64,000 bases of DNA from Rhodoferax sp. (GTDB lineage: Bacteria; Pseudomonadota; Gammaproteobacteria; Burkholderiales; Burkholderiaceae_C). The stretch covers positions 186,001 to 250,000 of the forward strand of contig NZ_JABBPD010000001.1 of NCBI RefSeq assembly GCF_012927445.1, given 5' to 3'. Positions within the stretch are counted from its first letter, which is position 1. Each line of letters begins with the position of its first letter. The translations under genes and the position numbers were made by a program. Shown one piece after another: positions 1 through 19,991 of this stretch. The notes below the pieces were generated by a model, which worked only from the letters and a program-made list of their open reading frames with translations, made no database searches and was not told the DNA's origin.

Positions 1-2040
1 TTTGCTTTGAATAACGGTATCAATAGCGGCTTCGTACACCCCTGCCACAGAACCTAGTGGTCCGGCAATTAAGTGGAGTTCATCCTGAATAATTAAATCA
101 GGTGGCCTGTTACCTGATCGACCAAAAAATACCGAGGTTCGTGGATCCCATGCCAGACGGGCGAATTTGTCGATGGTGCCAATAAGCAGTGTCGGCGGAT
201 TTTCAAACAAGGCTTCATCAACCACATTGCAAGGCAGTGCCTCGCAACCATTGTGAGTTGAAAACGAACAGTCGGCGTTGTGGCATTGAAAATGGAAACT
301 GGTCGCCGTTGCACGATAGTTGGTGGGTGCTTGAAACGCGGTTCCACACCAAGGGCATTGTGTGACCAATAGTTTTTTTGGTACCGTTTTTCTTGCAGTA
401 CTTTCAACTACGGTATCTACAGCGTTGTGAAAAGTATTGGGGCTGGTGTTGCCGCCTACCCAAATTCCGATATCGATCTGCGTTGAACCCAATCCCAAAG
501 CTGGTTCTGCTTTTCTGAGGTGCTCAAGCGCAAAGATAAGCCTGTTTGCGCGTTCAAATTGCTGTGCGGTAAGAAGACGGAGGGTGTATCGCATTAACAC
601 GGTGGTGCCGCCGCCAGTTGCCAGAAATTTTCTCCTACGCCAAGCGATGACAAAAGCACACAGAGCAAGATACGCTTCAGTCTTGCCACCACCAGTCGGG
701 AACCAGATCAGATCCACCAAATCTCGGTCACCTGAATCCTCGTCGATAGACGAGACAAGCGATGTAAGAACAAAGCCAAGTTGAAATGGTCGCCAACGAG
801 GTGCGCGCGGTGTTTGACCGTTCACTTGCTGGCTTTGCTTCATTTGAAGCAGCATGGCGCGGTTGGCAATTGAGAACGCCAATTGAGCCACCTTATCATC
901 TTGCAACCGTTTGATCCCGTTTCTCATTCGCGACAGCGTTTGGCTGACACGCGCCAAAATTCTATTAGCCGCCGGTTGGTGTGCAGTAAGTTGAGTGGCG
1001 GTTTGTTCACGCTCTGTAAGCCAGTCGGCATAACCATCAACGAAATCAGACAATGATTGAATTACCGCCGTTGGGTTGTTGGTGATTTCAGCCAAAAAAG
1101 CCAGATCAAGCGCATTTTCACTTTCGTTCCCTGTATCTGCAGTCACCTGCGGTACCTCAACCGTGGGTAAAAAATCGGCACGTATTTTTGCTATTGGTCC
1201 CTTCGCAGGATCGCCCCAATCTACCGCTGCCCCATGGCCAATGGCGTAAATGCGCCTGTGTTGGTATTGCAGCTCAAGGTCTTGGTCTTCGTCGTTTAGC
1301 AATGATGGATCAGTTCGTGGGTAGTCGCCCACCACGCCAGAAAGAATTCGGCATTCAAGTTCCACTTCGAATAGAGTAGATTCCTCCTTCTTTCTCTGCC
1401 AGGCTTTTGCATCGGGGAATTCATTTATTGACGCGCATACTTGGTTGTTGCACAGGGAAACGGTAACAATCCAACCAAGCCCATATCGGCGCCAAAGGGT
1501 CTGTATGACGCCCTTTGATTTACCATCGGGATGATCATGTGAAGTTTCGAAAATCTCAACCGAACGAAAATCTGGCTGCAAAGCGATATTTGAGGGCGAG
1601 AATGGAATGAGTGTTTCCTCCGCTCTTGACAACGGATATCTAGTCCACACACGATGTTCATCTTTAACGTTTGTGTCGTTGATTTTATATCGCACGCCCC
1701 ACGCGCGAACTTCCAGTTGAGCGTTTTCCCCCACGATGTAAAACGAAAATCCAACAGAAGAAGGGGGTACATAGCGAACATAGCTGACTTGACTTGGTTC
1801 GGCACCATCAGCGCTCATGCCACTTACATCTTCGCTCAAGTCGACCTCAACAACGGATTCAGTCGCTTTCGCCATGACAGGGAAAAGCACGCCACACTGA
1901 AATCGCTCTGAAGGCTTCATCCCCGTCAGATTCGTTGCGGTGTCGTCGTTGTCGTTATCTGATCCAAAACCAAATAGTTGTGTACGCATCCATCGGTAGA
2001 GACGCATTCGTTCTTCGCTGAAGTTCATTTTCAATTCCAT
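1..2040 (-). CDS. drmA: DISARM-type helicase DrmA, N-terminal ~680 residues (runs off the left edge)
   Basis: The frame is open from the ATG at 2040 to base 1, so the gene is cut by the window edge and not broken. A Walker A motif (FPTGGGKTE, residues 447-455) and a DEAD-like box II (DELH, 653-656) mark a superfamily 2 helicase. Between them is a four-cysteine cluster (C562, C565, C586, C591), probably zinc-binding. The context PPDLIIQDELHLIAGPLGS, the phrase LIGTIDKFARLAWDP and the beta-rich N-terminal domain match what I know of DrmA, the DISARM helicase that restricts phage together with DrmB and DrmC. An alternative ATG lies at 2028. Base composition is AT-richer than the genes to the right, consistent with transfer. 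The DrmA call is from recall of the family; an uncharacterised DrmA-like helicase is the main alternative. Confidence 0.8.
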   Translation of the reverse strand, partial: MELKMNFSEERMRLYRWMRTQLFGFGSDNDNDDTATNLTGMKPSERFQCGVLFPVMAKATESVVEVDLSEDVSGMSADGAEPSQVSYVRYVPPSSVGFSFYIVGENAQLEVRAWGVRYKINDTNVKDEHRVWTRYPLSRAEETLIPFSPSNIALQPDFRSVEIFETSHDHPDGKSKGVIQTLWRRYGLGWIVTVSLCNNQVCASINEFPDAKAWQRKKEESTLFEVELECRILSGVVGDYPRTDPSLLNDEDQDLELQYQHRRIYAIGHGAAVDWGDPAKGPIAKIRADFLPTVEVPQVTADTGNESENALDLAFLAEITNNPTAVIQSLSDFVDGYADWLTEREQTATQLTAHQPAANRILARVSQTLSRMRNGIKRLQDDKVAQLAFSIANRAMLLQMKQSQQVNGQTPRAPRWRPFQLGFVLTSLVSSIDEDSGDRDLVDLIWFPTGGGKTEAYLALCAFVIAWRRRKFLATGGGTTVLMRYTLRLLTAQQFERANRLIFALEHLRKAEPALGLGSTQIDIGIWVGGNTSPNTFHNAVDTVVESTARKTVPKKLLVTQCPWCGTAFQAPTNYRATATSFHFQCHNADCSFSTHNGCEALPCNVVDEALFENPPTLLIGTIDKFARLAWDPRTSVFFGRSGNRPPDLIIQDELHLIAGPLGSVAGVYEAAIDTVIQSK

Positions 2041-2123
2041 CAATGAATCGACGAATTGGTCTGGCTAAGTCTCCAAAACCCGATAGAACATCGCGATAAA
2101 TACCGGTCGAGAACTATCATCAT
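2040..2123 (-). CDS. 27-codon leader ORF coupled to drmA
   Basis: This short ORF begins with tandem ATG codons (2123 and 2120) preceded at a good distance by AAGGGAGAA, the best ribosome binding site in this end of the window. Its TGA stop overlaps the first ATG of the helicase gene as TGATG, the classical arrangement for translational coupling. The peptide begins MMIVLDRYLSRC and resembles nothing I recognise. It may be a real small protein, a leader peptide, or simply the ribosome loading point for drmA, whose own upstream sequence has no clear Shine-Dalgarno motif. Confidence 0.45.
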   Translation of the reverse strand: MMIVLDRYLSRCSIGFWRLSQTNSSIH

Positions 2124-2148
2124 CAATTCTCCCTTACGCACTATCTTT

Positions 2149-2160
2149 TAAAGCGCTTTA
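2149..2160. promoter_or_regulatory. 12-bp perfect palindrome, possible operator
   Basis: TAAAGCGCTTTA is a perfect palindrome with a central CG step, the form typical of LacI/GalR-family operators. It sits 26 bp upstream of the drmA leader ORF. No matching regulator gene is visible in the window, so the role is inferred from shape and place only. Confidence 0.35.
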
Positions 2161-2470
2161 TGTGAATATTGGCGTGGAGAATAACGCATTTTTCCAGATA
2201 GAAATAAGCCGAGCCGTGATCGAATGGCGCCTCCGGGTGCTAGTTTGGACAGCCTCTATGACTGTTTTGGGCACGTTGCCGAATGCCACGAACGGCTTCT
2301 GACTGGAGTTGCACTGGAGAACCCGAAAGCTGCAGGTGGTGAGCACCCGCTAAGGGTCTTCAGCAGACGATCACAAGCTTGTCAACAATCGCACAAACAA
2401 CAGGTATCAGTTTGCTAACAAAGGCGAATCTGGCGGCGTCTCTCTGTAGATACCAAATTTATAAGAAAAC
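2161..2470. other. Gene-free junction between drmA and purN
   Basis: No credible gene was found on either strand. The two short open frames of about 60 codons here lack ribosome binding sites and overlap each other antisense. A TTGACA hexamer at 2385-2380 on the minus strand could be a -35 box, but no good -10 follows at the right distance. The stretch separates the AT-rich defence end from the GC-rich core genes. Confidence 0.5.
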
Positions 2471-2520
2471 AGGCTGTAGCCCCCGTGCAATAAGCGCACG
2501 AAGCTATTATTTTTGTAGTA
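2471..2520 (+). repeat. Dispersed ~50-bp repeat, copy 1 (overlaps the purN stop)
   Basis: This carries the family's left core TAGCCCCCGT and right core AAGCTATTATTTTTGTAGTA. The purN stop codon and its last codons lie inside the copy, so the element supplies the natural end of that protein. Confidence 0.75.
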
Positions 2521-3097
2521 ATTGCGCAATCGCCTGCGCATAGATGAGATGCTCTTGCGTCAGCACCCGCGCCGCCAGCGTGTCGTGCGTATCGCCGGGC
2601 AGCACCGGCACCACCGCTTGCGCCAGGATCGGGCCATGGTCCAGCTCGGCGGTGACCTGGTGCACGGTCGCCCCGGCTGACCGGCAACCGGCGTCAATAG
2701 CGCGCTGATGCGTGTGCAGCCCGGGAAATGCCGGCAGCAGCGAGGGGTGGATGTTCAGCAGCCGGCCCGCGTAACGAGCCACGAACCCAGGGGTCAGAAT
2801 CCGCATGAAACCGGCCAGCACCACCAGCGCCGGTTGCCCCGGTTCATCAAAACGATCAATTGCCTGAGACAGCGCCTCGTCAAACGCCTCGCGCGAGGCA
2901 AAGGATTTATGGTCCAGCACCTTGGTCGCAAGGCCATGTTCTTGCGCAAAAATCAGACCCTGCGCGGTCGCCTTGTTGCTGATGACTGCGGCTACCCGAG
3001 CCCCCAATTTGTCGTGCCAGCCATCGCGTTTTGCGGTTTTAACGATGGCAGCCATGTTGGAGCCGCCGCCTGAGATCAAAATAACAATGTTTTTCAT
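2507..3097 (-). CDS. purN: Phosphoribosylglycinamide formyltransferase
   Basis: This enzyme transfers the formyl group of 10-formyltetrahydrofolate to GAR, the third step of de novo purine synthesis, in the cytoplasm. The 196-residue length is normal for the family. Visible signatures are the phosphate-binding GGGSN near residues 10-14, the catalytic pair in [12 protein letters not shown] (N115, H117) and the essential Asp in ELDHGPI (D153). The start [12 protein letters not shown] matches family members, and longer in-frame extensions upstream read into the antisense of yceH. The last codons come from a dispersed repeat. The start codon lies only 15 bp from that of the divergent yceH-type gene. 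Confidence 0.96.
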
Positions 3098-3112
3098 ACC
3101 TGGCTTAATTTT

Positions 3113-3811
3113 ATGACGTTGACTCCCTCCTCCCCCCCGCTCACCCCGATCCTGACGCCCATCGAGGCCCGCGTGCTCGGCACCCTGATGGAAAAGGCCC
3201 GCACCGTGCCAGACAGCTACCCGCTCAGCCTCAACGCGCTGCTGACGGGTTGCAACCAAAAAACGACGCGCGATCCGCTGATGGAGCTGACGGAAGCACA
3301 AGTGGCGACGGCGATTGACGAGCTTAAATCGGCCGGGCTGGTGCGTGAAACCAGCGGTGGCCGTACCACGCGCTATGAACATAACTTTCAGCGTGGCATC
3401 GGCGTTTATGAACAAGCGGCCGTGCTATTGGGGATGTTGATGCTGCGCGGGTCGCAAACGGCGGGCGAATTGCGCCTGAATACCGAGCGCTGGTACAAGT
3501 TTGCCGACATCTCCTCCGTCGAGGGTTTTTTGGAAGAACTGCAGGACCGCTCGCCGGAAAAAGGCGGCCCCTTGGTCGTCAAGCTGGCGCGCGGCCCCGG
3601 CACCCGGGAGCAGCGCTGGGCCCATCTGCTGTGCGGCCCGGTGGACGCGACGCAGACTGGCGCGGAGCACGCATCACGTTCCGGCGACGGATCGGTCACC
3701 GGCAACCTGGCGGCGCGCATCGACCAACTCGAAACGCAAATGGCGCAATTGCGTGAAACGGTACAAAAACTGTGCAGCGAACTGGGCGTGTCACCCCCCG
3801 GACAGAGTTAG
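3113..3811 (+). CDS. YceH family (DUF480/UPF0502) protein
   Basis: The 232-residue protein matches the YceH family. It has two tandem winged-helix units: residues ~10-85 contain [16 protein letters not shown] and [13 protein letters not shown], and residues ~95-180 contain [14 protein letters not shown]. The C-terminus (~205-228) is a short coiled coil, [15 protein letters not shown]. The function of YceH proteins is not established; a structural or regulatory role is often assumed. No Shine-Dalgarno motif precedes the ATG and only 15 bp separate it from the purN start, so the mRNA may be leaderless or the promoter may lie inside purN. Confidence 0.9.
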
Positions 3812-3855
3812 CCGAACGACCGTGCTAAAAATGCGGGATATTTGGAGACCCGTTT

Positions 3856-5034
3856 ATGGATTTGGCCTTTACCCCTGAAGAGCAGCAGTTTCGCGAAGAC
3901 ATTCGCGCCTGGGTGAGTGAGAACCTGCCGCCCGACATCTCGCACAAAGTGCACAACGCCCTGCGGCTGAGCCGGGACGACATGCAACGCTGGGCCAAAA
4001 TTCTGGGCAAGAAAGGCTGGCTCGGCCATGGCTGGCCCAAGGAATTTGGCGGCCCGGGCTGGAACTCGGTCCAGAAACATCTGTTTGAAGAAGAATGCGC
4101 GCTGGCGGGCGCCCCGCGCGTGGTGCCGTTTGGCCCGGTGATGGTGGCGCCGGTGATCATGGCGTTTGGCAATGCCGAGCAGCAACAGCGCTTTTTGCCC
4201 GGCATCGCCAGCGGCGACGTCTGGTGGAGCCAGGGTTACAGCGAGCCGGGCGCCGGCTCGGATCTGGCCTCGGTCAAAACCCGCGCCGAACGGCAGGGCA
4301 AGCACTACATCGTCAATGGGCAGAAAACCTGGACCACCTTGGGCCAGTACGGCGAATGGATTTTTTGCCTGGTGCGCACCAGCACCGAGGGCAAACCGCA
4401 GACCGGCATCAGCTTTCTGCTGATCGACATGGCCTCGCCCGGCGTCACCGTGCGCCCGATCGTGCTGCTGGACGGCGAGGCTGAGGTCAATGAGGTCTTT
4501 TTTGACAATGTCGAAGTGCCGGTGGAGAACCTGATTGGCGAAGAAAACAAGGGTTGGACCTACGCCAAGCACCTGCTGAGCCATGAGCGCACCAACATTG
4601 CCGACGTGAACCGCGCCAAACGCGAACTGGAGCGCCTCAAACGCATTGCCAAGGCAGAAGGTGTTTACACCGACACGCGCTTTCGCGACGAAATCGCCAA
4701 GCTGGAAGTGGACGTGGTGGCGCTGGAGATGATGGTGTTGCGCGTGCTGGCCGCCGAGAAATCCGGCAAGCAGTCGCTCGACATTGCCGGCCTCTTGAAG
4801 ATTCGTGGCAGCGAGATTCAACAACGCTACAGCGAACTGATGATGCTGGCGGCCGGACCTTACGCGCTGCCGCTCATTCACGAGGCGATGGAAGCCGGCT
4901 GGCAGGGCGAGGCGGTGGGCGCGGCTTACTGCGCGCCGCTGGCCTCCACCTACTTCAACATGCGCAAGACCACCATTTACGGTGGCAGCAATGAAGTGCA
5001 ACGCAACATCGTTTCCCAAGTCGTACTCGGATAA
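3856..5034 (+). CDS. Acyl-CoA dehydrogenase, large-subunit type (PimC-like)
   Basis: This 392-residue FAD-dependent acyl-CoA dehydrogenase has the usual three domains: helical N-terminus (MDLAFTPEEQQFREDIRAWV), a middle beta domain with the flavin-contacting YSEPGAGSDLAS (~130-141), and a C-terminal four-helix domain ending in TTIYGGSNEVQRNI. The C-terminal YEGT motif that carries the catalytic Glu of MCAD reads YGGS, as in other members of this subfamily. The next gene encodes a shorter dehydrogenase 13 bp downstream, the layout of heterodimeric pimeloyl-CoA-type dehydrogenases (pimC-pimD). The substrate cannot be read from sequence; a dicarboxyl- or branched acyl-CoA is a reasonable guess. 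Confidence 0.88.
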   Translation: MDLAFTPEEQQFREDIRAWVSENLPPDISHKVHNALRLSRDDMQRWAKILGKKGWLGHGWPKEFGGPGWNSVQKHLFEEECALAGAPRVVPFGPVMVAPVIMAFGNAEQQQRFLPGIASGDVWWSQGYSEPGAGSDLASVKTRAERQGKHYIVNGQKTWTTLGQYGEWIFCLVRTSTEGKPQTGISFLLIDMASPGVTVRPIVLLDGEAEVNEVFFDNVEVPVENLIGEENKGWTYAKHLLSHERTNIADVNRAKRELERLKRIAKAEGVYTDTRFRDEIAKLEVDVVALEMMVLRVLAAEKSGKQSLDIAGLLKIRGSEIQQRYSELMMLAAGPYALPLIHEAMEAGWQGEAVGAAYCAPLASTYFNMRKTTIYGGSNEVQRNIVSQVVLG

Positions 5035-5047
5035 AAGGACTCTCATC

Positions 5048-6163
5048 ATGGATTTTGATTTTTCTGACGACCAGGAACAACTGCGCGACGCGGTGCGCAA
5101 ATGGGTGGACAAGGGCTACAGCTTCGAGCGCCGGCGCGCGGCGGTCAAAGCCGGTGGCTTTTCCCGTGACGCGTTCCAGGAGATGGCCGATCTCGGCCTG
5201 TGCGGCCTGTACATTCCGGAGGCCCATGACGGGATGGGCATGGGCCCGGTCGAGGGCATGGTGGTGATGGAGGAGCTGGGGCGCGGCATCGTGCTGGAGC
5301 CCCTGGCCCAAAGCCTGATCGCCGGTGGCGTGCTGAGCGGCTACGCCCCTGACGCCGTCAAATTGGCCTGGCTGCCCCAAGTGGCCAGCGGCGCAGCGCT
5401 GGTGGTGCTGGCGCACCAAGAGCGCGCCGCCCGCTACCGGCTCGATGTTTGCGAGGCTAAAGCGACTCCGGCCCCCGTCGGCTATACGCTAACAGCTACA
5501 AAAAGCATAGTACCGACCGGCGATCTGGCGAATGCCTTCATCGTGCCAGCCATGGTCGACGGCCAACTGGCCTTGTTTCTGGTGGAACGCACCGCCAGCG
5601 GTGTCCACACCCGGGGCTACGGCACACAAGACGGCAGCCGCGCCGCCGAACTCACACTGCAAAATGCGCCCGCCACCCTGATCACGCTTCACGGCTTGAC
5701 CGCGCTGGAACATGCGGTGGATATCGGCATTGCCGCCACCTGCGCTGAAGCGGTCGGCGTGATGGACAAAACCCTGACTATTACCGCCGACTACCTCAAC
5801 ACGCGCAAGCAGTTTGGCGTCGTCATCAGCAGCTTCCAGGCCTTGCGGCACCGCGCTGCGGACATGAAAATGCAACTCGAACTGGCGCGCTCCATGAGCT
5901 ACTACGCCGCGCTCAAACTCAACGCGCCCGCGCAGGAGCGGCGAGCGGCGATGGCCCGGGCCAAATACCAACTGGGCAATTCCATGCGTTTTGTGGGACA
6001 GCAGGCGGTGCAACTGCATGGCGGCATCGGCGTCACCGACGAATACATCGTGAGCCATTACTTCAAAAAGCTGACCCAGCTGGAGATGACGTTTGGCGAC
6101 AGCCTGCATCACCTCGGTGAAGTAGCCCGCCGGATGCAGGACACCGCCGGCGTGTTTGCCTGA
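5048..6163 (+). CDS. Acyl-CoA dehydrogenase, small-subunit type (PimD-like)
   Basis: The 371-residue partner of the preceding dehydrogenase starts MDFDFSDDQEQLRDAVRKW, with AAAGGA nine bases before the ATG. A longer frame to 4982 would overlap the upstream gene and lacks a ribosome binding site. The C-terminal domain keeps YLNTRKQFGVVISSFQALRH and QLHGGIGVTDEY, typical of the family, while the middle flavin domain is more divergent. In known heterodimers the second subunit often lacks catalytic residues. Residues ~136-156 (EAKATPAPVGYTLTATKSI) are encoded by a dispersed repeat inserted in frame in the middle domain, and the frame remains open. Confidence 0.85.
   Translation: MDFDFSDDQEQLRDAVRKWVDKGYSFERRRAAVKAGGFSRDAFQEMADLGLCGLYIPEAHDGMGMGPVEGMVVMEELGRGIVLEPLAQSLIAGGVLSGYAPDAVKLAWLPQVASGAALVVLAHQERAARYRLDVCEAKATPAPVGYTLTATKSIVPTGDLANAFIVPAMVDGQLALFLVERTASGVHTRGYGTQDGSRAAELTLQNAPATLITLHGLTALEHAVDIGIAATCAEAVGVMDKTLTITADYLNTRKQFGVVISSFQALRHRAADMKMQLELARSMSYYAALKLNAPAQERRAAMARAKYQLGNSMRFVGQQAVQLHGGIGVTDEYIVSHYFKKLTQLEMTFGDSLHHLGEVARRMQDTAGVFA
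5454..5513 (+). repeat. Dispersed ~50-bp repeat, copy 2 (inside the acyl-CoA dehydrogenase gene)
   Basis: This carries GCCCCCGTCGGC and the right core CAGCTACAAAAAGCATAGTA. It is read in frame as part of the dehydrogenase. Confidence 0.8.
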
Positions 6164-6183
6164 GCTGAGGCCTTGGCCTGCGT

Positions 6184-7080
6184 TTACTCGGCTTCACGCA
6201 CCCGCAAAAAGCTGGCAAAACGCGGCAACCCCGTCGGAGTCCGCTCCCGGTACCGGTAGGTGACGAACGCCCCCAGCCGCGGTGGCGTGGCGCGCTGGGC
6301 GTCGGTCAAACCGGTGCCCAGGGCAAAGCGCTGGCCGTTCGGCATTTCCAGCACCAGCGCCCCCAAACGTCCTGCATGGCGGCCCTTGCCGGGCTGGTAG
6401 GCCACCACCCGCGCGTCTTCATCCGGGATCACTTTGAGCTTGCGCAGTGCATCGCTGCGCCCGGGTTTCCAGTCGGCATCGGCGCGATGCAGCACCAGCC
6501 CTTCGGCGCCCTCGCCCACGATTTGCAGCAGTTCCAGTTGCAGCGATTCGCGATCAGGCACGCGGGACTGCGGAACCGCTTTGAGCCACGGCACGTCCAC
6601 CGAATCGACCAGAGACACGACACGCGCCGCCCGCTCGCCAAACGAACCCCGTCCGCCCGGCAGGTCAAAAATCATGTAACTCAGTTCATGCCATTCGGCA
6701 TCCACCGGAACGCTGCGGCGAACGATGCCAGAGAGGCGATCAAAACTGCGGCGGCCAAGCCACAATTCGCCATCCAGTGGGGTGTCCGGCAGCGCCGCCG
6801 TGAACCAGTCGGGTGCTGCAATGCGCCGACCACTGCGAAAACGCAGCGTGTGGCCATCCCAAAACGCACGCACGCCATCGAGTTTCTCACTGACCAGAAA
6901 ACCAAGCGGATCAAGCCCGGCGCGCCAATGTTTGGCCAGCATGAGCGCCGGCGGCACAACAGAAGGGGTTTGAACGGCGGACTGGTCCACCCGGGCCGCC
7001 GGTGCGGCCGCCGTAAAAAAGGCACTGCCCAAAAGCAATGCCCAGTGGGTCGCCTGTCTGCCGACTGTTCGAGAAGCCAT
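6184..7080 (-). CDS. Periplasmic ATP-dependent DNA ligase, LigE type
   Basis: This minimal ATP-dependent ligase has 298 residues. The nucleotidyltransferase core carries motif I EKLDGVRAFW with the adenylated Lys at 66, motif III-like YMIFDLPG, motif IV EGLVLH and motif V LRKLKV. A compact OB fold follows (ALGTGLTDAQRATPPRLGAFVTYRYRE). The N-terminus (~1-30) has an arginine, a hydrophobic core WALLLGSAFFTAAAPAA and small residues suited to signal peptidase, so the protein is probably secreted to the periplasm. LigE enzymes are proposed to repair incoming DNA or act on extracellular DNA. It lies 65 bp downstream of an HNH nuclease gene on the same strand. Confidence 0.85.
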   Translation of the reverse strand: MASRTVGRQATHWALLLGSAFFTAAAPAARVDQSAVQTPSVVPPALMLAKHWRAGLDPLGFLVSEKLDGVRAFWDGHTLRFRSGRRIAAPDWFTAALPDTPLDGELWLGRRSFDRLSGIVRRSVPVDAEWHELSYMIFDLPGGRGSFGERAARVVSLVDSVDVPWLKAVPQSRVPDRESLQLELLQIVGEGAEGLVLHRADADWKPGRSDALRKLKVIPDEDARVVAYQPGKGRHAGRLGALVLEMPNGQRFALGTGLTDAQRATPPRLGAFVTYRYRERTPTGLPRFASFLRVREAE

Positions 7081-7145
7081 CGTTATTCTCCCTGGGACTC
7101 AGTTAGGGAAAGTGTAACGATGCGGATGGCGATGGATACCCACTT

Positions 7146-7703
7146 TCAGGAAACCAGACGCGACGACTTTGGCACATGTGCCATCAAAAACTCCATCTGG
7201 TCAGCCAGGATGCGGCGATTGCGCAAAATGAAGTCTTCCCATAGGCTGGGCACATACGGGGTGTACAGCAGCGGCATATGGGCCTGTTCGGGCGTGCGGT
7301 GGCTTTTGCGGTGGTTGCAGGGCCGGCATGAGGTGACCACATTCATCCAGGTGTCGATGCCGTTCTGGGCGAATGGAATGATGTGCTCCCGCGTCAGGAC
7401 TTCTTCATGAAAATGTTCGCCGCAATAGGCACAAATATTGCGGTCCCGCGCGAACAGCTTGCTGTTGGTCAACCCTGGCTTCAGGTTGAAGGGATTGATG
7501 CTTGATACGCCCCGGGTGCCAATGATGCTGTTGACGGTGATGATGGATTGCACGCCGGTGAGCGCGTTATGGCCCCCATGAAAGACGGCGACTTCTCGCC
7601 CCATCTCCCAGCGCACTTCTTCCGCGGCGTAATGAATCACCGCTTGCTCCAGCGAAATCCACGATTGGGGCAGCCCTTGGGCTGACAGCTTCAAGACCTT
7701 CAA
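7146..7703 (-). CDS. HNH endonuclease
   Basis: The 185-residue protein has a C-terminal HNH domain: CAYCG zinc knuckle, LTREHIIPFAQNG with the metal-binding His, the central Asn in WMNVVTSC, and CRPCNHRKS. The start chosen is TTG (MKVLKLSAQGLPQSW) because AGGAGG lies six bases upstream; an ATG further upstream would run into the ribF promoter region. HNH proteins of this type (related to Burkholderiales genes next to ribF) have no established substrate. It is followed by the LigE-type ligase. No methylase partner is near, so a restriction role is not supported. Confidence 0.85.
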   Translation of the reverse strand: MKVLKLSAQGLPQSWISLEQAVIHYAAEEVRWEMGREVAVFHGGHNALTGVQSIITVNSIIGTRGVSSINPFNLKPGLTNSKLFARDRNICAYCGEHFHEEVLTREHIIPFAQNGIDTWMNVVTSCRPCNHRKSHRTPEQAHMPLLYTPYVPSLWEDFILRNRRILADQMEFLMAHVPKSSRLVS

Positions 7704-7823
7704 AACACGCCTCCTGGAACAGTAAATGAACCACTGACACGAAATCCGATTGCCGCTTGCAGCAGGGCAAATTTCTTCGCTCCGCCGCCTAGGACACAAT
7801 ATACGCTGTTTTTATGACAATTT

Positions 7824-7870
7824 GGCGTCCAGCGCTTCAGTCAATGGCGCAGTCTGCTATCAAAAAGATA
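7824..7870 (+). repeat. Dispersed ~50-bp repeat, copy 3 (ribF leader)
   Basis: The copy carries GGCGTCCAGCGCTTCAG and the right core CTGCTATCAAAAAGATA. It ends eight bases before the ribF ATG and fills the place where a ribosome binding site would be expected. Confidence 0.65.
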
Positions 7871-7878
7871 CCGATCCA

Positions 7879-8862
7879 ATGAAGGTTTTTCGCGGCTTAC
7901 ATCACCCCGGCGTCGCGCAATCCTGCGCGCTGACCATTGGCAACTTTGACGGCGTGCACCGGGGCCACAAAGCCATGCTGGCGCTCCTGCGCGGCGAGGC
8001 CCAGCAGCGCGGCGTATCGAGTTGCGTCCTGACATTTGAGCCGCATCCACGCGATTATTTCGCCGCCGTCTCCCATCAGCGTGAGCGGGCCCCCGCCCGC
8101 ATTGGCACCCTGCGCGACAAACTGACTGATCTGGCCCAGTGCGGCGTGGACCAGACGGTGGTGTTGCCGTTTGACGCACGGCTGGCGGCCTTGTCGCCCC
8201 AGGCGTTCATCGACGAGGTGCTGGTCAAGGGGCTGGGCACCCAATATGTGCTGGTGGGCGATGATTTCCGCTTTGGTTTCCGCCGCGCCGGCGACTACAC
8301 CCTGCTGGATGCGGCTGGGGTCGCGCAAGGCTTTGACGTGGCGCGCATGAACAGCTATGAGGTGCACGGCTTGCGCGTTTCCAGCTCGGCCGTGCGTGAC
8401 GCGCTGGCGGAAGGCCGCATGGACGACGTGACGCGGCTGCTGGGGCGACCCTACCGCATCTCGGGCCATGTGGTGCACGGCCGCAAACTGGGGCGCGAAC
8501 TGGGTTTCCGGACCCTGAACCTGCGCTTTGCCCACTGGAAACCCGCCGCCAGCGGCATTTTTGTGGTGCTGGTGCATGGCTTGACCGAACTGCCGCTGGC
8601 GGGCGTTGCCAACATCGGCATTCGGCCGTCACTCGACCCGTCCGATATCAATGGCGGGCGGGTGCTGCTGGAAACCCATTGCCTGGATTGGCCCGCCAGC
8701 CTCGGCCCCGAGGGGGCCTACGGTAAAATTATCCGAGTTGAACTCCTTCACAAACTGCACGACGAGCTGAAGTACGACTCCCTTGACGCGCTGACGGCTG
8801 GCATCAACCGTGATTGCCAGCAAGCGCGTGCGTACTTTGCAACCCAGCGCCACCATGACTAA
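7879..8862 (+). CDS. ribF: Bifunctional riboflavin kinase / FAD synthetase
   Basis: RibF makes FMN from riboflavin and then FAD, in the cytoplasm. The 327-residue protein has an N-terminal FMN adenylyltransferase domain with [15 protein letters not shown] (HxGH nucleotide site) and a C-terminal riboflavin kinase domain beginning near [15 protein letters not shown] and including NIGIRPS. The start [11 protein letters not shown] is preferred over a longer frame from 7750 because the extension has no family resemblance and runs into the divergent HNH promoter region. The stop overlaps ileS by eight bases, the conserved ribF-ileS-lspA operon. No RFN riboswitch is apparent upstream. Confidence 0.95.
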
Positions 8863-11737
8863 TACACCCACGCCTGCTACTGAAACCGTCACCAAGACCG
8901 ACTACCGCGCTACCCTCAACCTGCCGGACACCCCGTTTCCGATGCGCGGTGATCTGCCCAAGCGTGAGCCGGGCTGGGTCAAAAACTGGGAAGACCAGGG
9001 CCTTTACAAGAAACTGCGCGCAGCCAGAGCGGGGGCACCCAAGTTCGTGCTGCACGACGGCCCGCCCTACGCCAACGGCCAGATTCACATGGGTCATGCT
9101 GTCAACAAAATCCTGAAAGACATGATCGTCAAGGCGCGCCAGCTGCAAGGCATGGACGCCGCTTACATCCCGGGCTGGGACTGCCACGGCCTGCCGATTG
9201 AGAACGCGATTGAAAAGAAGTTTGGCCGCAAGCTGCCGCGCGACGAGATGCAGGCCAAGAGCCGCGCCTACGCCACCGAGCAGATCGACCTGCAGCGCAC
9301 CGACTTCAAACGCCTGGGCGTGCTGGCCGAGTGGGACAACCCGTATCGCACCATGGATTTCAAGAACGAGGCCGAAGAACTGCGCGCCTTCAAACGCGTG
9401 GTGGAACGCGGCTTTGTCTACCGCGGCCTCAAACCCGTGTACTGGTGTTTTGACTGCGGCTCCAGCTTGGCCGAGTTTGAAATCGAATACGCCGACAAAA
9501 AATCACAAACGCTGGATGTTGCGTTCTTAAGCGCCGAACCGGCCAAACTGGCGGCCGCCTTTGGCTTGACGGCGCTCGACAAAGAAGCGTTTGCCGTGAT
9601 CTGGACCACCACCGCCTGGACCATTCCGGCCAATCAGGCGCTCAATCTGAACCCGGAACTGACCTACGCGCTGGTCGACACCGAGCGCGGCCTGCTGCTG
9701 CTGGCCGAGAGTCTGGTCGACAAATGCCTGGAACGCTTCCAGCTCACCGGTACCGTGGTCGCCACCACCCAGGGCAAAACCCTGGCGGGCCTCAACTTCA
9801 AACACCCGCTGGCCCATGTGGATGCCGGTTATGACCGCCTGAGCCCGATCTACCTGGCCGACTACGCCACTGCGGATGACGGCACCGGCATCGTTCACTC
9901 GGCACCTGCTTATGGGGTAGAGGATTTCAACTCCTGCGTCGCGCACGGCATGGCCTACGACGACATCCTGAACCCGGTACAAGGCAACGGCGCTTACGAG
10001 CCCGAACTGGCGCTGTTCGGCGGCCAACACATCTGGAAAGCCTGCCCGGTCATCATCGACACCTTGCGCGAAGCCGGCCGCCTGATGGCCACCTCTGACA
10101 TCGTGCACAGCTACCCGCATTGCTGGCGCCACAAAACGCCGGTCATCTACCGCGCCGCTGCCCAGTGGTTCATCCGCATGGACGAAGGCGAAGGCGTCTT
10201 CACCAAGGACAAAGCGCCCAAATCGTTGCGTCAACTGGCGTTGGACGCGATTGAAGAAACCGCGTTTTACCCTGAGAACGGCAAAACCCGCCTGCGCGAC
10301 ATGATTGCCGGCCGGCCCGACTGGTGCATCTCCAGACAGCGCAGTTGGGGCGTGCCGTTGCCCTTCTTTTTGCACAAAGACAGTGGCGAACTGCACCCGC
10401 GCACCATGGAGATTCTGGACATCGCCGCCGACATGATCGAGCAAGGCGGAGTGGAAGCCTGGAGCAAGGTCACGACCGAATCGATTCTCGGTGCGGTGGA
10501 TGCACAAGCCTACAGCAAGAGCAGCGACATTCTGGAAGTCTGGTTTGACTCCGGCACCACCCACACCACCGTGCTCAAGGGCTCGCACGCCGGCGCCGGC
10601 CACGCGACCGGCCCGGAAGCCGACCTGTACCTGGAAGGGCACGACCAGCACCGCGGCTGGTTCCACTCGTCCCTGCTGACGGCCTGTGCCATGTACGGCC
10701 GCGCGCCCTACAAAGGCATCCTGACCCACGGCTTCACCGTGGACAGCAAGGGCCACAAGATGAGCAAGAGCCAGGGCAACGGCGTCGATCCGCAAGAGAC
10801 CTCGAAGAAGCTCGGCGCCGAAATCATCCGTTTGTGGGTGGCGGCCAGCGACTACTCCGGCGACATTGCCGGCGACGAAAAAATCCTGGCCCGCGTGGTG
10901 GACACCTACCGCCGTGTGCGCAACACGCTCAAATTCCTGCTGGCCAACGTCAGCGACTTTGACCCGGCGGCGGACACCGTGCCGCTGGCCCAGATGCTGG
11001 AGATTGACCGTTACGCCCTGAGCCGTGCGGCACAGTTGCAGGCCGACATCCTGGCGCATTTTGAGGTCTATGAATTTCACCCGGTGGTGGCCAAGCTGCA
11101 AATTTACTGCTCGGAAGACCTTGGTTCGTTCTACCTTGACGTGCTGAAAGACCGGCTCTACACCACGGCACCGAAGTCGCTGGCCCGGCGCAGTGCGCAG
11201 ACCGCGCTGTGGCAAATCACGCAAGCCATGCTGCGCTGGATGGCGCCGTTCCTGAGCTTTACCGCGGAAGAGGCGTGGGCGGTGCTGGGTACGGCAGGCA
11301 AAACGCCAGCCAAAACCAAAGAGTCGATTTTCCTGGACACCTACGTTCAGCTGGCGGCGCCCGATACCGCCTTGCTGGCCAAGTGGGCCCGCATCCGCGA
11401 GCTGCGCGATGCGGTGAACAAGGACATCGAAACCCTGCGCGCCGAAGGCAAGGTCGGCTCCTCCCTGCAAGCCAATGTGGAACTCACGGTGAATGCCGAG
11501 GATTTCGCGCTGCTGACCAGCCTGGGCGATGACCTGAAATTCGTTTTTATCATTTCCGCTATTACTTTAGTAGCTGGTGACGCAATCGCCATAAGGGCTA
11601 GCGCCTCAAATGGCATCAAGTGCGAGCGCTGCTGGCATTATTGCGACGACATCGGTGTTGACGCCGCGCACCCCACCTTGTGTGGCCGCTGCACCAGCAA
11701 CCTGTTCGGCGCCGGTGAAACCCGAGCGTTTGCCTGA
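8855..11737 (+). CDS. ileS: Isoleucyl-tRNA synthetase
   Basis: This class Ia synthetase charges tRNA-Ile with isoleucine. The 960-residue chain shows HMGH (78-81), the CP1 editing domain with [21 protein letters not shown] (635-639), and the C-terminal zinc module with cysteines at about 923, 926, 943 and 946 (CERC, CGRC). The start [10 protein letters not shown] at the ATG overlapping ribF is chosen; the upstream frame is ribF in another phase. Residues ~902-918, directly before the zinc module, are encoded by a dispersed repeat ([16 protein letters not shown]). The stop overlaps the lspA ATG by one base. Confidence 0.97.
11558..11608 (-). repeat. Dispersed ~50-bp repeat, copy 4 (inside ileS)
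   Basis: Read on the minus strand it carries GGCGCTAGCCCTTATGG and the right core CAGCTACTAAAGTAATAGC. It is translated in frame in ileS in the opposite orientation to copy 2 in its host gene. Confidence 0.8.
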
Positions 11738-12270
11738 TGGCCCGCAAACCAGGCGGGGGGCCTGCCAAATCCAACTTCAGGTCCGGTGGTTCTTCGTCGG
11801 GTGGCCTGTTGCAGTGGCTGGGTCTGGCCGCCATCCTGCTGATGGCCGACCAGTTCACCAAGATCTTGATCGTCGGCTTTTACAAACTGGGTGACGCCAC
11901 CCACGTCACCAGCTTCTTTAACGTGGTGCGGGTGCACAACAGTGGCGCGGCATTCTCGTTTCTGGCCGGGGCGGGGGGCTGGCAACGCTGGTTCTTCACG
12001 GCCATCGGCCTCCTGGCGGCGGCCTTGATTGTGTGGATGCTCAAGTCGCACGCCGGACAAAAACTGTTTGCTTTTGCCCTGGCCTGCATTCTGGGCGGCG
12101 CCATTGGCAATGTGATTGACCGGGTGCTGTATGGCTACGTGGTCGACTTTCTGGACTTTCACTGGCGCGGCTGGCACTTTCCGGCCTTCAATCTGGCCGA
12201 CAGCGCCATCACCATCGGCGCCGCTTGTCTGATCCTGGATGAACTGCTGCGCGTGCGGCGCGGGCGCTAG
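11737..12270 (+). CDS. lspA: Lipoprotein signal peptidase II
   Basis: LspA cleaves the signal peptide of prolipoproteins after lipid modification, in the inner membrane. The 177-residue protein has four hydrophobic segments. The catalytic aspartates fall in [10 protein letters not shown] and FNLADSAIT, and the conserved [11 protein letters not shown] is present. The N-terminus has a ~24-residue Gly/Ser-rich hydrophilic extension before the first membrane segment. The ATG overlaps the ileS stop by one base, indicating translational coupling. Confidence 0.96.
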
Positions 12271-12294
12271 GCCAGACAAACAACGGGGACTGCC

Positions 12295-13971
12295 TTGACG
12301 CACCTGCTGAACCTCCTGGCCGCGATTGCCCTGCTGGTCTGGGGTACGCAACTGGTGCGCACCGGCATCCTGCGCGTGCTGGGCGCCAATTTGCGCAACG
12401 TGCTGGCGCAGAGCGTCAGCAACCGGTTCAAAGCCACGGTCTCGGGCATTGGCGTTACGGCACTGGTGCAGTCCAGCACGGCCACCGCACTCATCGTGTC
12501 GGCCTTTGTCGGCCAGGGACTGATGTCGCTGCCTGCGGCGCTGGCGGTGATGCTGGGCGCCGACATTGGCACCAGCCTGATGGCCGTGCTGTTCTCGCGT
12601 GATCTGTCCTGGCTGTCGCCGCTCTTCATCTTGATCGGGGTGGTGCTGTTCATTGCCCGCCCATCAACCACGGCCGGGCGGGTCGGGCGGATTCTGATTG
12701 GTCTGGGACTGATGCTGCTGGCCCTGAACCTGGTCCGGGAGTCGGCCAATGTCTTGACGCAGGCACCAGCCATCAAAGCCTTGCTGGCCTCGCTCAGCAG
12801 TGACTTGCTGCTGGAGATCACCTTGGGCGCCCTGCTGGCCGTGCTGAGCTACTCCAGCCTGGCCATTGTGCTGCTCACCGCGACCCTCGCCAGCACCGGG
12901 GTGGTGCCGGTGGACGTGGCGCTGGGCCTGGTGCTGGGCGCCAACCTCGGCAGCGGCCTGCTCTCGGTGCTGACCACCCTCAACGCCAACGTGGAAACGC
13001 GTCAGGTGCCGCTCGGCAATCTGGTGTTCAAGGTGTTGGGCGTGGCCATTGCGGCGCCTTTCGTCAGTCTCTGGTTTCAGCATGCCCGCCCACTGCTGGG
13101 CGATGTGGCCACCGTCGTCGTGCTGTTTCATCTGGGCTTTAACCTGATGGCGTGGCTGCTCTTCATCGGCCTGACCCAAATGATTGCCCGCTGGGCCGAA
13201 TCCTGGCTACCCAAACCCAGAAAAAGCAGCAGCACCGGGCGCGCCAGCCATCTGGACCCGTCCGCGCTGACCACCACCTCACTGGCCTTTTCGTGCGCCG
13301 TGCGCGAGGCCATGCACCAGGCCGATGTGGTGGAAACCATGCTGCTGGGCCTGCTGGAGGTGATCAAAAACAACGACCACAAGCTGGCGCAGCGTCTACA
13401 AAAGATGGCCGATACGGTGAACCTGCTGTACACGGACATCAAGCATTACCTGACCCAAATCTCGCGCGACGCCCTGAGCGAAAAAGAAGGACACCGCTGG
13501 AGCGACATCATCAGCTTCACCCTCAACATGGAGCAGATTGCCGACATCATCGGACGGGTGCTGCTGGATGTTGAAGACAAAAAGATCAAGTCAGGGCGGG
13601 AGTTCTCGCCGGCGGGCATGACCGAGATCACCGACTTGCACGGCCACCTGGTCAACAACCTGCGCCTGGGCATGAGCGTCTTCCTCAATGGCAATCAGCG
13701 CGACGCACAAAAACTGCTGGAAGAAAAAATCCGCTTTCACGATCTGGAGCACGCCTATGCTGCCTCCCACCTGGAGCGCCTGGCCGTCAATACCGTGCCC
13801 AGCATGGAAACCAGTTCGCTGCACCTGGACCTGATCAGCGACCTGAAACGCATCAACTCGCTGATCTGCGCCATGGCCTATCCGATTCTGGGCTCGGCCA
13901 GCGCGCCCGCACCGACCCGGCAGCGGCGATCGGTGCCGCCCGCCAAGCCCAGTCTCAAAGCGTCAGAATAG
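12295..13971 (+). CDS. Na/phosphate cotransporter family protein with PhoU-like domain
   Basis: The 558-residue protein has two Na/Pi-cotransporter repeats. The first holds ALVQSSTATALIVSAF, the QSS motif of the family; the second has the degenerate counterpart VLSYSSLAIVLLTATL. Helical PhoU-like repeats follow in the C-terminal ~200 residues. Members of the NptA/YjbB group transport or export phosphate across the inner membrane. The start is a TTG 24 bases after lspA, preceded by CGGGGAC. The 3' end overlaps the convergent quinone reductase gene by 17 bases. Specificity is inferred from family only. Confidence 0.85.
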   Translation: MTHLLNLLAAIALLVWGTQLVRTGILRVLGANLRNVLAQSVSNRFKATVSGIGVTALVQSSTATALIVSAFVGQGLMSLPAALAVMLGADIGTSLMAVLFSRDLSWLSPLFILIGVVLFIARPSTTAGRVGRILIGLGLMLLALNLVRESANVLTQAPAIKALLASLSSDLLLEITLGALLAVLSYSSLAIVLLTATLASTGVVPVDVALGLVLGANLGSGLLSVLTTLNANVETRQVPLGNLVFKVLGVAIAAPFVSLWFQHARPLLGDVATVVVLFHLGFNLMAWLLFIGLTQMIARWAESWLPKPRKSSSTGRASHLDPSALTTTSLAFSCAVREAMHQADVVETMLLGLLEVIKNNDHKLAQRLQKMADTVNLLYTDIKHYLTQISRDALSEKEGHRWSDIISFTLNMEQIADIIGRVLLDVEDKKIKSGREFSPAGMTEITDLHGHLVNNLRLGMSVFLNGNQRDAQKLLEEKIRFHDLEHAYAASHLERLAVNTVPSMETSSLHLDLISDLKRINSLICAMAYPILGSASAPAPTRQRRSVPPAKPSLKASE

Positions 13972-14950
13972 TGCAGCCGGTGGTCTTGCGCGCTTCCAGG
14001 TCGCGGTGCGCCTGTTGCACGTCTTCCAGCTTGTAGCGCTGGTCGATGCGAATCGTGACCTTGCCGCTGGTCACGGCTTCAAACAAATCATCGGCCATCG
14101 CCTGCGTGCTCTCGCGCGTGGCAATGTGGTTGAACAAGGTCTGGCGTGTCACATAAAGCGAGCCCTTGGCGCCCAGCAGGCCGGGAGCAAACGGCGCCAC
14201 CGGACCGGAAGCGTTGCCAAAGCTGGCCATCAGACCGAACGGTGCCAGGCAGTCGAGCGACTTGTCCCAGGTGTCTTTGCCGACCGAGTCGTACACCACC
14301 TTCACGCCCTTGCCGCCGGTGATTTCTTTGACGCGGACCAAAAAGTCTTCGGTGGAATAGTTGATGACAAACGCAGCGCCGTGCTCTTTGGCCAATGCAC
14401 ATTTGGCGTCCGAGCCGGCCGTGCCGATCAGTTGCAAGCCCATGGCGCGGGCCCACTGGCAGGCAATCAGACCGACGCCACCGGCGGCGGCATGGAACAG
14501 TACAAAGTCGCCAGCCTGCAAACCGCCCTGCGGCTGGGTGCGCTTCAGCAGGTATTGCGCCGTCAGGCCCTTGAGCATCATGGCGGCGCCAGTCTCGAAA
14601 GAAATAGCGTCCGGCAGTTTGCACACGCACTTGGCCGGCATAACGCGCAATTCGCAGTAGCTGCCCGGCGGCTGGCTGGCGTAGGCGGCGCGGTCACCGA
14701 CTTGCAAGTGCGTCACACCCTCGCCCACCGCCTCCACCACACCAGCGGCTTCCATGCCCAATTGCAAAGGCATTGGCAAAGCGTAAAGACCGCTGCGCTG
14801 GTAGACGTCAATAAAGTTCAGACCGACCGCATGGTGACGGATGCGGATTTCACCGGGACCGGGGTCCCCCACGGTGACCTGCACCAGTTTGAGCTGCTCG
14901 GGGCCGCCATTTTGATCAATGCGAATGGCGCGGGAAGGAATTGAAGTCAT
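13955..14950 (-). CDS. NADPH:quinone oxidoreductase, zinc-independent MDR type
   Basis: This 331-residue medium-chain reductase resembles QorA: N-terminal GroES-like fold (HHAVGLNFIDVYQRSGLY), the nucleotide-binding AAAGGVGLIACQWA, and the family sequence YDSVGKDTWDKSLDCL. Structural zinc cysteines are absent, as expected for quinone reductases. The start MTSIPSRAIRID is chosen; the 24 residues encoded further upstream do not resemble the family. It lies head to head with a DMT permease gene, with about 100 bp between the starts. Confidence 0.9.
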   Translation of the reverse strand: MTSIPSRAIRIDQNGGPEQLKLVQVTVGDPGPGEIRIRHHAVGLNFIDVYQRSGLYALPMPLQLGMEAAGVVEAVGEGVTHLQVGDRAAYASQPPGSYCELRVMPAKCVCKLPDAISFETGAAMMLKGLTAQYLLKRTQPQGGLQAGDFVLFHAAAGGVGLIACQWARAMGLQLIGTAGSDAKCALAKEHGAAFVINYSTEDFLVRVKEITGGKGVKVVYDSVGKDTWDKSLDCLAPFGLMASFGNASGPVAPFAPGLLGAKGSLYVTRQTLFNHIATRESTQAMADDLFEAVTSGKVTIRIDQRYKLEDVQQAHRDLEARKTTGCTILTL

Positions 14951-15049
14951 GTCTGAAATTATTAAAGTTGTATCGACCGATATCGTGCCATGAAATACGG
15001 CAAGACGTCTTGTCGAGGTCATTCACGCGCCACTTGCTACAGTCCTACC

Positions 15050-15952
15050 ATGCACCCGAAACTGACACCCACTGCCGCCCTGTTGCTCACCCTGCCGCCC
15101 CTGCTCTGGGCTGGCAACGCCGTGGTCGGCCGTCTGGTCAGTGATCTGGTGTCGCCCATGACCCTGAATTTTCTGCGCTGGCTGCTGGCGTTTGCCGTGC
15201 TGCTGCCGCTGGCGGGCAACGTGTTGCGGCCCAGCAGCCCGCTCTGGCCCAACTGGCGGCGTTTTGCGCTGCTCGGCCTGTTCAGCGTGGGCGGCTACAA
15301 CGCTTTGCTGTACCTGGCCCTGACCACCTCCACCCCGATCAATGTCACCTTGGTGGGCTCCAGCATCCCAGTCTGGATGCTGCTGATCGGACGCCTTTTT
15401 TTTGGCGTTGCCATTTCGCGGCGCCAGCTGCTGGGCGCCGCGCTGTCGATCAGCGGCGTCTTGCTGGTGCTGTGCCGCGGTCAGTTTGAAGTGCTGCTGC
15501 AGGTGCGGTTGGTGCCGGGCGACTTGTACATCCTGGTGGCCTCGGCGGGCTGGGCCTATTACAGCTGGATGCTGGCGCGCCCGACCACCGAACCCGCAGA
15601 CATCCGCGCCGACTGGTCGGCTTTTTTGCTGGCGCAAGTGGCGTTTGGTTTGGCTTGGTCCGGGCTGTTTGCGGGCGGCGAGTGGGCGCTAACTAAAGCG
15701 CACATCCAGTGGGGTTGGCCACTGGCTGCAGCCTTGGCATTTATTGCGGTCGGCCCCGCGCTGATCGCCTACCGCGCCTGGGGTGCCGGCGTGCGCCGGG
15801 CTGGTCCGGCAGCGGCCGGCTTTTTCTCGAACCTGACGCCGCTGTTCACTGCCCTGCTCTCCAGCGCCTTCTTGGGCGAGATACCGCAGCTGTACCACGT
15901 CATGGCTTTTGTCCTGATTTTGGGCGGCATCCTAGTGTCGTCACGCCGCTAG
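15050..15952 (+). CDS. EamA/DMT family permease
   Basis: The 300-residue protein is built of ten hydrophobic segments in two EamA repeats, for example LLLTLPPLLWAGNAVVGRLV at the start and AAAGFFSNLTPLFTALLSSA in the second half. Such proteins export or import small metabolites, but the substrate cannot be told. The ATG at MHPKLTPTAALL is preferred to an upstream frame that adds 20 hydrophilic residues. Confidence 0.88.
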   Translation: MHPKLTPTAALLLTLPPLLWAGNAVVGRLVSDLVSPMTLNFLRWLLAFAVLLPLAGNVLRPSSPLWPNWRRFALLGLFSVGGYNALLYLALTTSTPINVTLVGSSIPVWMLLIGRLFFGVAISRRQLLGAALSISGVLLVLCRGQFEVLLQVRLVPGDLYILVASAGWAYYSWMLARPTTEPADIRADWSAFLLAQVAFGLAWSGLFAGGEWALTKAHIQWGWPLAAALAFIAVGPALIAYRAWGAGVRRAGPAAAGFFSNLTPLFTALLSSAFLGEIPQLYHVMAFVLILGGILVSSRR

Positions 15953-19956: not shown

Positions 19957-19991
19957 GTTGTAGGTGTCCTGTTCGTAGATGCGCCATGGCT

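Follow-up and report, generated by a model that had tools for sequence, protein, structure and literature searches.

A DrmA-DrmB operon of Rhodoferax, probably a DISARM-like anti-virus system without methylase and PLD nuclease genes

Introduction

In the sections available of the study of DISARM (PMC9142583), DrmAB binds single-stranded DNA and DNA with 5´ overhangs, a loop in DrmA restrains it, methylated DNA lowers its ATPase activity but does not stop it, DrmC is dispensable, and methylation explains the choice between self and non-self only partly. Two questions are left open in these sections, the basis of self/non-self discrimination and the nuclease that follows DrmAB (PMC9142583). The DrmA protein of class 1 carries an EVE-like domain at its N-terminus, a proposed reader of modified bases, and the same source mentions "many uncharacterized DISARM-like" classes, which are not described in the portion of its text at hand (Bell et al. 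2025, PMC12458937). The accessible parts of the reports on Shield (PMC10270631) and CoCoNuT (PMC11090510) and of a survey of NAD+-ADPr (PMC9503650) deal with other DISARM-like loci or with DarT and not with the five-gene operon presented here. As far as its texts were accessible, the open-licence literature yielded no description of this operon; the supplements of Bell et al. 2025 may list its clade.

We analysed a stretch of 64,000 nucleotides from Rhodoferax (the window), bases 186001-250000 of contig C5 in a genome of 3.94 Mb; window coordinates are those of C5 minus 186000. The operon that reaches into its left edge is, judged by sequence, a probable anti-virus system that resembles DISARM and has neither a methylase gene nor a PLD nuclease gene.

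Results

Gene content of the operon

An earlier note, made from the letters of the window, had described a frame of 680 codons running off the window's edge, with a Walker A motif, a four-cysteine cluster and a DELH box, and had recognised DrmA in it. Re-reading the sequence confirmed all of this: the frame is open at base 1, starts at 2043 (TTG) or at 2040 (ATG, the second codon, which gives exactly 680 codons), and contains the Walker A motif WFPTGGGKTEAYL, the cysteines C563-x2-C566 / C587-x4-C592 and IQDELHLIAGPLGS. The run against DrmA profiles that had been proposed was carried out, and the DrmA models of PADLOC match with E down to 6e-106 on the part in the window and 7e-195 on the whole gene, which excludes a chance match. 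The strongest matches of this helicase are DrmA, and the only PDB sequences matched at E 1e-5 are those of DrmA (7s9v/7s9w). The NCBIfam DrmAS equivalog (NF038325) gives 814 bits, below its own cut-off of 950.

Reading the contig leftward of the window revealed five genes in a row on the same strand, drmA, drmB, ORF3, ORF4 and ORF5 (Table 1). drmB shares 4 bases with ORF3, and gaps of 7 and 4 bases separate ORF3 from ORF4 and ORF4 from ORF5. The earlier note had expected the deciding genes left of base 1 and a locus that begins with drmA or else shows a new gene order; drmB and ORF3 to ORF5 were read there, and drmA is the first gene, followed by drmB. Of the three genes that it had suggested looking for on this side, drmB adjoins drmA, while drmC and a methylase have no match among the five genes. 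Its term DISARM-type holds for the core proteins DrmA and DrmB and fails for the system, which differs in gene content and not in order alone.

Table 1. Position of the operon, its genes and a neighbouring gene
Feature	Position	Strand	Length	Basis
drmA, SF2 (YprA-type) helicase	window 1..2040; whole gene C5:184792-188043	minus	1082-1083 aa	profile matches
drmB	C5:182960-184852	minus	630 aa as longest frame	NF038324, Pfam MZB, 7s9v_B
ORF3, SF1 (UvrD-type) helicase with zinc ribbon	C5:181095-182963	minus	622 aa	Pfam UvrD_C_2, GajB models
ORF4, no family	C5:179528-181087	minus	519 aa	homologues, models of homologues, fold matches
ORF5, NERD nuclease + SF1 helicase fusion	C5:177931-179523	minus	530 aa	Pfam NERD, RTasNERD-Hel, motifs
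Inserted segment with operon	C5:177114-188456; part in window 1..2456		~11,343 bp	empty site in L159, GC
purN (name from the earlier note), on the other side of drmA	window about 2507-3415	minus		

The drmB product (DUF1998) scores 291 bits with NF038324, above the cut-off of 240, and matches Pfam MZB (1.8e-07) and the PDB sequence 7s9v_B. Its second ATG would give a protein of 611 aa and an overlap of 4 bases with drmA (read by eye); the longest frame overlaps more. ORF3 matches Pfam UvrD_C_2 (8e-08) and GajB models of PADLOC (down to 1.9e-10), its PDB profile matches include HelD, PcrA/UvrD and GajB, and its N-terminal zinc ribbon matches Pfam DZR at 0.0024, under the cut-off of that family. 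Compared with 378-430 aa in the clade described below, our ORF3 is long; the zinc ribbon and ~190 further residues before the helicase part are found only in our protein and that of L016 among the 14 clade members. ORF5 matches Pfam NERD (9e-10) and the PADLOC model RTasNERD-Hel (1.2e-43).

No profile of PADLOC, Pfam or NCBIfam for a methylase (drmMI or drmMII), drmC, drmD or drmE matched any of the five operon proteins. This includes the PLD nuclease DrmC, which was not found adjoining drmAB, and DrmD of class 1 and DrmE of class 2, for which the five proteins were compared with PADLOC and NCBIfam; both libraries presumably contain drmE models. Likewise, GajA and a reverse transcriptase had no match among the five proteins, and a scan for a promoter upstream of drmA found none. 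Elsewhere in the genome, C5-methylase frames are present on contigs C3 and C4, as are two PLD-type frames of 419-472 aa; a second DrmB was not found in this genome.

Insertion of the operon as a unit

The operon is inserted as a unit between two genes that we take to be macB (named by eye) and purN (named in the earlier note). The five genes have a GC content of 46-51%, compared with 61-66% on both flanks. A congeneric genome (G502, locus L159; listed contamination 7%) contains the same two flanks one base apart and lacks the segment, which places the insertion at the coordinates of Table 1, and in G038 (L169) the same flanks are ~88 bases apart. These two were the only ones with the left flank among 11 purN loci compared, the other nine being unaligned within short loci. 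A Rhodoferax MAG (L016) harbours a copy of the system with 93-95% DNA identity (84% over the outermost 236 bases upstream); beyond the system the similarity stops and the flanks are different.

Direct repeats in the flanks were considered as attachment sites and rejected, since by eye they do not look so. Two 28-nt repeats with TTATCCACA, which we take to be the DnaA-box consensus, lie in the inserted segment beyond ORF5, left of the window (L004 7206-7531, C5 177206-177531).

YprA/MrfA-type helicases act in repair as well, according to the part of the source at hand (PMC12458937). SF1 helicases are also repair enzymes. An operon for DNA repair, or one directed against plasmids or conjugation rather than phage, would agree with this. 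The low GC content, the insertion between other genes, the patchy spread, the kinship to the DrmA of DISARM and the copies of DrmA loci of the same and related kinds on plasmids and viral contigs argue against such a function, which we hold to be unlikely.

ORF4 and its possible DarT-like fold

Our ORF4 has no match at E 0.1 in Pfam, PADLOC and PHROGs; the NCBIfam model blaGIL gave 15 bits against a cut-off of 640 and was taken as chance. With tblastn, ORF4 was found in no plasmid, phage or viral contig searched, and among 100 genomes (99 of them relatives) only in our own. Profiles detected homologues in the plasmid loci L006, L008 and L009, showing that single-sequence searches miss them. 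The ORF4 profile found only our genome among 397 Pseudomonadota genomes and missed G280 (L151), so that absence elsewhere stays unproven by this search. After iteration it collected 23 homologues from the frames of the fetched DrmA loci, every one with ORF3 directly before it (23/23). The ORF4 of L151, found through the DrmB of G280 and lying outside the profile, matches at 2e-29 and also directly follows ORF3.

AlphaFold2 models were made of two homologues, the copy in L016 (500/519 residues identical to ours) and the protein of L020 (about 20% identical), with pLDDT 81 and 86 and pTM 0.84 and 0.88; since they share most alignment rows the two models are not fully independent. In the PDB, Foldseek placed DarT chains of four different proteins at ranks 1-7 and 9 for both models, and at rank 8 Tpt1, a tRNA 2'-phosphotransferase that presumably belongs to the same fold family. 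These fold similarities are weak, with best E values of 3.0e-3 and 1.0e-3, probability 0.99-1.00, rmsd 5-10 Å and TM to target 0.27-0.58; for neither model was a Foldseek match counted at E <=0.001, and in a viral structure library nothing reached E 0.001 (best 0.012). An ADP-ribosylglycohydrolase-like middle region of ORF4 was set aside, with ARH3 appearing only at lower ranks (E about 0.5-3).

The ADP-ribosyltransferase domain 2CompART of Pfam matched 4/19 ORF4 homologues at E up to 10. When nine homologues were scanned singly, three matched (1.8e-5, 2.4e-4 and 0.029), with 15-25 bits against a cut-off of 27; our ORF4 had no match to it in the Pfam scan. Using hhalign against six DarT proteins, only the stretch TN..NL....GL was aligned (17-18 columns, probability about 3). 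The catalytic His and Glu are invariant in the six DarT rows and have no counterpart in the ORF4 rows when these are lined up by eye around TN..NL....GL, the Glu being placed by a shared proline and strand; in this line-up, 0/13 ORF4 rows of our clade have a Glu at that place (L023 is not placeable). The N-terminal domain of ORF4 is thus predicted, weakly and from models of homologues, to resemble DarT, an ADP-ribosyltransferase of single-stranded DNA, and it is apparently devoid of DarT's catalytic His and Glu.

Alternatively, ORF4 might be an active DarT-like ADP-ribosyltransferase of DNA or RNA, in an operon that modifies phage DNA or causes abortive infection and uses its helicases as sensors. 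For two models the PDB matches are led by DarT (the proteins are ~20% identical, with largely shared alignment rows), some homologues match 2CompART near its threshold, and in Azospirillum (L013) the gene behind a NERD helicase encodes a DarT whose His and Glu are intact. The missing counterparts of both catalytic residues, judged by eye, and the Pfam scan of the five proteins, which brought up no macro domain, speak against activity, and we consider this role unlikely.

Relatives with the same gene order

Scanning a species collection with a DrmA alignment gave at least 590 confirmed places, of which the best 80 were taken as genome loci; a further 20 DrmA loci came from viral contigs, and the closest plasmid relatives of DrmA pointed to neighbour genes. 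A rapidly built tree of 121 DrmA proteins unites ours with 13 others in a single clade (SH-aLRT 100). L110 and L115, with DrmA frames <700 aa, were left out of the tree. A careful tree of 37 rows, picked after the 14-row clade had been seen in the large tree, contains the same 14-member clade with support 100/100, apart from methylase-bearing DISARM; L056, which had a very long branch in the large tree and is probably a wrong frame, was left out here. One 100/100 branch of the careful tree has all 23 ORF3-bearing rows and two NERD-only rows on one side and the 12 remaining rows, including six of methylase-bearing DISARM, on the other. Mapped on the 121-protein tree, where 42 rows are labelled "ORF3 after drmB", this label requires 6 changes, compared with 35 by shuffling.

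The order drmA-drmB-ORF3-ORF4-NERD was found by profiles in our locus and in L016-L025, that is, in 11/14 clade members (all among the best 80 of at least 590 places); in L017 drmB lies in two frames. According to record titles and taxonomy lookup, L016-L025 are from Pseudomonadota (one endosymbiont has no looked-up phylum), with one from Myxococcota and one from Planctomycetota; seven are MAGs, thus contig assignment may err. The locus of L026 ends 138 bases after ORF4. In L057 (9953-23132) drmB-ORF3-ORF4 lies on the strand opposite to drmA and is separated from it by several genes, either through an inversion or an assembly error. In L027, a Rhodothermales MAG, the 5.7 kb downstream contain no NERD gene, which counts against a five-gene system independent of methylase. 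The same locus (10010-14974) encodes drmA and drmB as one fused frame of 1654 aa, with the DrmA profile at 4-1040 and the DrmB profile at 1043-1645, which argues for a complex of the two proteins.

ORF3 and ORF4 accompany DrmA in 14/14 members of the clade (drawn from the best 80 of at least 590 places) and ORF5 is present in 11/12 where it can be judged, L026 ending early and L057 being rearranged. The motifs of DrmA and ORF3 are kept in 14/14 members. Among the 11 members with ORF5, the NERD residues D..ExK are present in 11/11 and Walker A and DE[AG]QD in 10/11; the ORF5 of L025 has neither Walker A nor the DExQ motif, an observation against the explanation proposed below. On re-examination, NERD was recognised in three further members and the cysteines of DrmB in two, all of them missed by the first pattern. 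In Vibrio ezurae (L023), a 2144-aa frame with weak similarity to the DrmA profile precedes the system (3173-9607), and behind the system lies a second frame with a match to the NERD-helicase profile (19485-21632).

Seed profiles detected neither a methylase nor drmC in 14/14 clade loci, with flanks ranging from ~0 (L026) to ~10 kb. A motif scan of these loci brought up one unassigned frame with NPPF, in L020, and one drmC seed profile matches five frames in the searched loci, none of them in the 14-member clade.

Other DrmAB neighbourhoods

Among the best 80 of at least 590 genome loci, a frame matching the ORF3 profile is present in 38, in 36 of them close after drmA/drmB, and ORF4 in 18. L056 and L057 are irregular, and L068 and L074 have the ORF3-profile frame elsewhere. 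A second group starts with a NERD gene (for example L028, L029, L031, L040, L041, L048, L058, L072 and, from Deinococcus, L006) and often has no recognised ORF4. In a third group (L010-L013, L149 and many of L073-L095) another UvrD helicase precedes drmA; NERD frequently comes after drmB, and some of these loci have a methylase frame nearby (e.g. L010, L080, L090, L099). In Azospirillum ramasamyi (L013), UvrD-drmA-drmB-NERD is followed by a DarT gene (15069-15671) in which His and Glu are intact; it is the only match to a DarT profile (E 1e-3) among the frames searched. Seven loci (L034, L059, L060, L062, L069, L150, L152) combine a frame of ~900-1600 aa with a following NERD-helicase, drmA and drmB; this recurring arrangement seems to be one more DrmAB class not yet described.

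An even sample of 397 Pseudomonadota genomes gave DrmB matches in 15, in 11 of them over the cut-off, our own included. Of the other 10 contexts, L144-L146 contain both methylase and drmC, L147 and L148 contain a methylase but no drmC, and the remaining five are one UvrD-drmAB-NERD (L149), two with the large gene, NERD and drmAB (L150, L152; L150 has a short cytosine-methylase-like frame before the large gene), one drmA-drmB-ORF3-ORF4 (L151) and one cut off by a contig end (L133).

Outside our clade, cytosine-methylase frames often lie within a few kb (L006, L028, L040, L041, L058, L072, L107), and in L151 such a frame directly follows ORF4; these relatives count against a reading independent of methylase. 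They would suit an ordinary DISARM that had lost or displaced its methylase and drmC, with genome-encoded enzymes as substitutes and ORF3 to ORF5 as passengers, and so would the C5-methylase frames on C3 and C4, the two PLD-type frames and the dispensability of DrmC in published DISARM, as given in the available sections (PMC9142583). In the clade with 100/100 support, however, ORF3 and ORF4 are always present and ORF5 in all judgeable members except one, and the order of ORF3 to ORF5 is kept over the clade distance, which would not be expected of passengers; seed profiles found no methylase and no drmC there, apart from the single NPPF frame of the motif scan. We regard an ordinary DISARM as improbable.

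Discussion

The conserved five-gene relative of DISARM, with no methylase in its operon, is probably an undescribed class. A DISARM relative that works independently of methylase, in which DrmAB loads onto single-stranded DNA or 5´ overhangs of phage and the NERD nuclease-helicase degrades the DNA, is the explanation that we consider reasonably probable. The content and order of the genes, their conservation, their motifs and the insertion of the operon as one unit are observations; what we infer for antiviral activity, the formation of a complex, the order of action and the roles of ORF3 to ORF5 is the following. As in DISARM, the helicase core that loads onto DNA would consist of DrmA and DrmB, and its substrate would be single-stranded or 5´-overhang DNA of incoming or replicating phage. 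The choice between self and non-self would be made by DNA structure and not by a methylation mark of the operon's own making. ORF4, DarT-like and lacking the catalytic residues, would be a probable adaptor binding DNA or nucleotides, ORF3 may serve as a second motor or sensor of the GajB type, and ORF5 would replace DrmC and degrade the DNA.

The DrmA profile of our group starts at residue 137 of the solved DrmA, thus the N-terminal EVE-like domain seems to be missing. The local alignment of our DrmA starts at residue 218 of the solved protein (77 of ours), leaving most of the trigger loop (176-232) unaligned; at this place our protein has an acidic linker before PPSSVGFSF. The absence of a methylase from the operon together with that of an EVE-like domain fits recognition by DNA structure. 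The cytosine-methylase frames elsewhere in the genome make methylation in trans possible, which speaks against this explanation.

It might also be possible, in a more tentative extension that we think rather doubtful, that the operon represents a third DISARM-type class, free of methylation, in which DrmAB and a dead DarT domain as reader of single-stranded DNA pass intermediates of phage replication on to the NERD nuclease-helicase. If this were true, a toxin that modifies single-stranded DNA would have become a recognition subunit. With a natural DrmAB that has no methylase in its operon and a fixed nuclease-helicase partner, both questions left open for DISARM would become directly testable. 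In addition, the gene content and the phylogenetic limits of one uncharacterised DISARM-like class are now described, together with a mechanism that can be tested.

Like DISARM of class 1 and class 2, the operon has DrmA and DrmB as separate adjacent genes with strong profile and PDB-sequence matches. Unlike DISARM, it shows no match to DrmMI, DrmMII, DrmC, DrmD or DrmE and contains ORF3 to ORF5 instead, and its DrmA belongs to another clade than that of methylase-bearing DISARM. In the part of the source at hand (PMC12458937), ARMADA, Druantia, BRIGADE and TALON share the YprA-type helicase core, and ARMADA II adds a GajB-like helicase and TALON a NERD nuclease, which is a likeness to our operon; in these systems, however, helicase and DUF1998 part are typically one fused protein, and the BrxHII-like helicase and PglX-like methylase of ARMADA both have no equivalent in the operon. 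ORF3 resembles the GajB-type SF1 helicases of Gabija but is part of a DrmAB operon with no GajA match, and ORF5 resembles the NERD-helicase fusions of Nhi, AbiO and the DRT-associated proteins but likewise stands in a DrmAB operon, with no match to a reverse transcriptase. With DarT of DarTG, the likeness lies in the predicted N-terminal fold of ORF4 homologues; unlike DarT, ORF4 has apparently lost the catalytic His and Glu and is joined to a large helical region.
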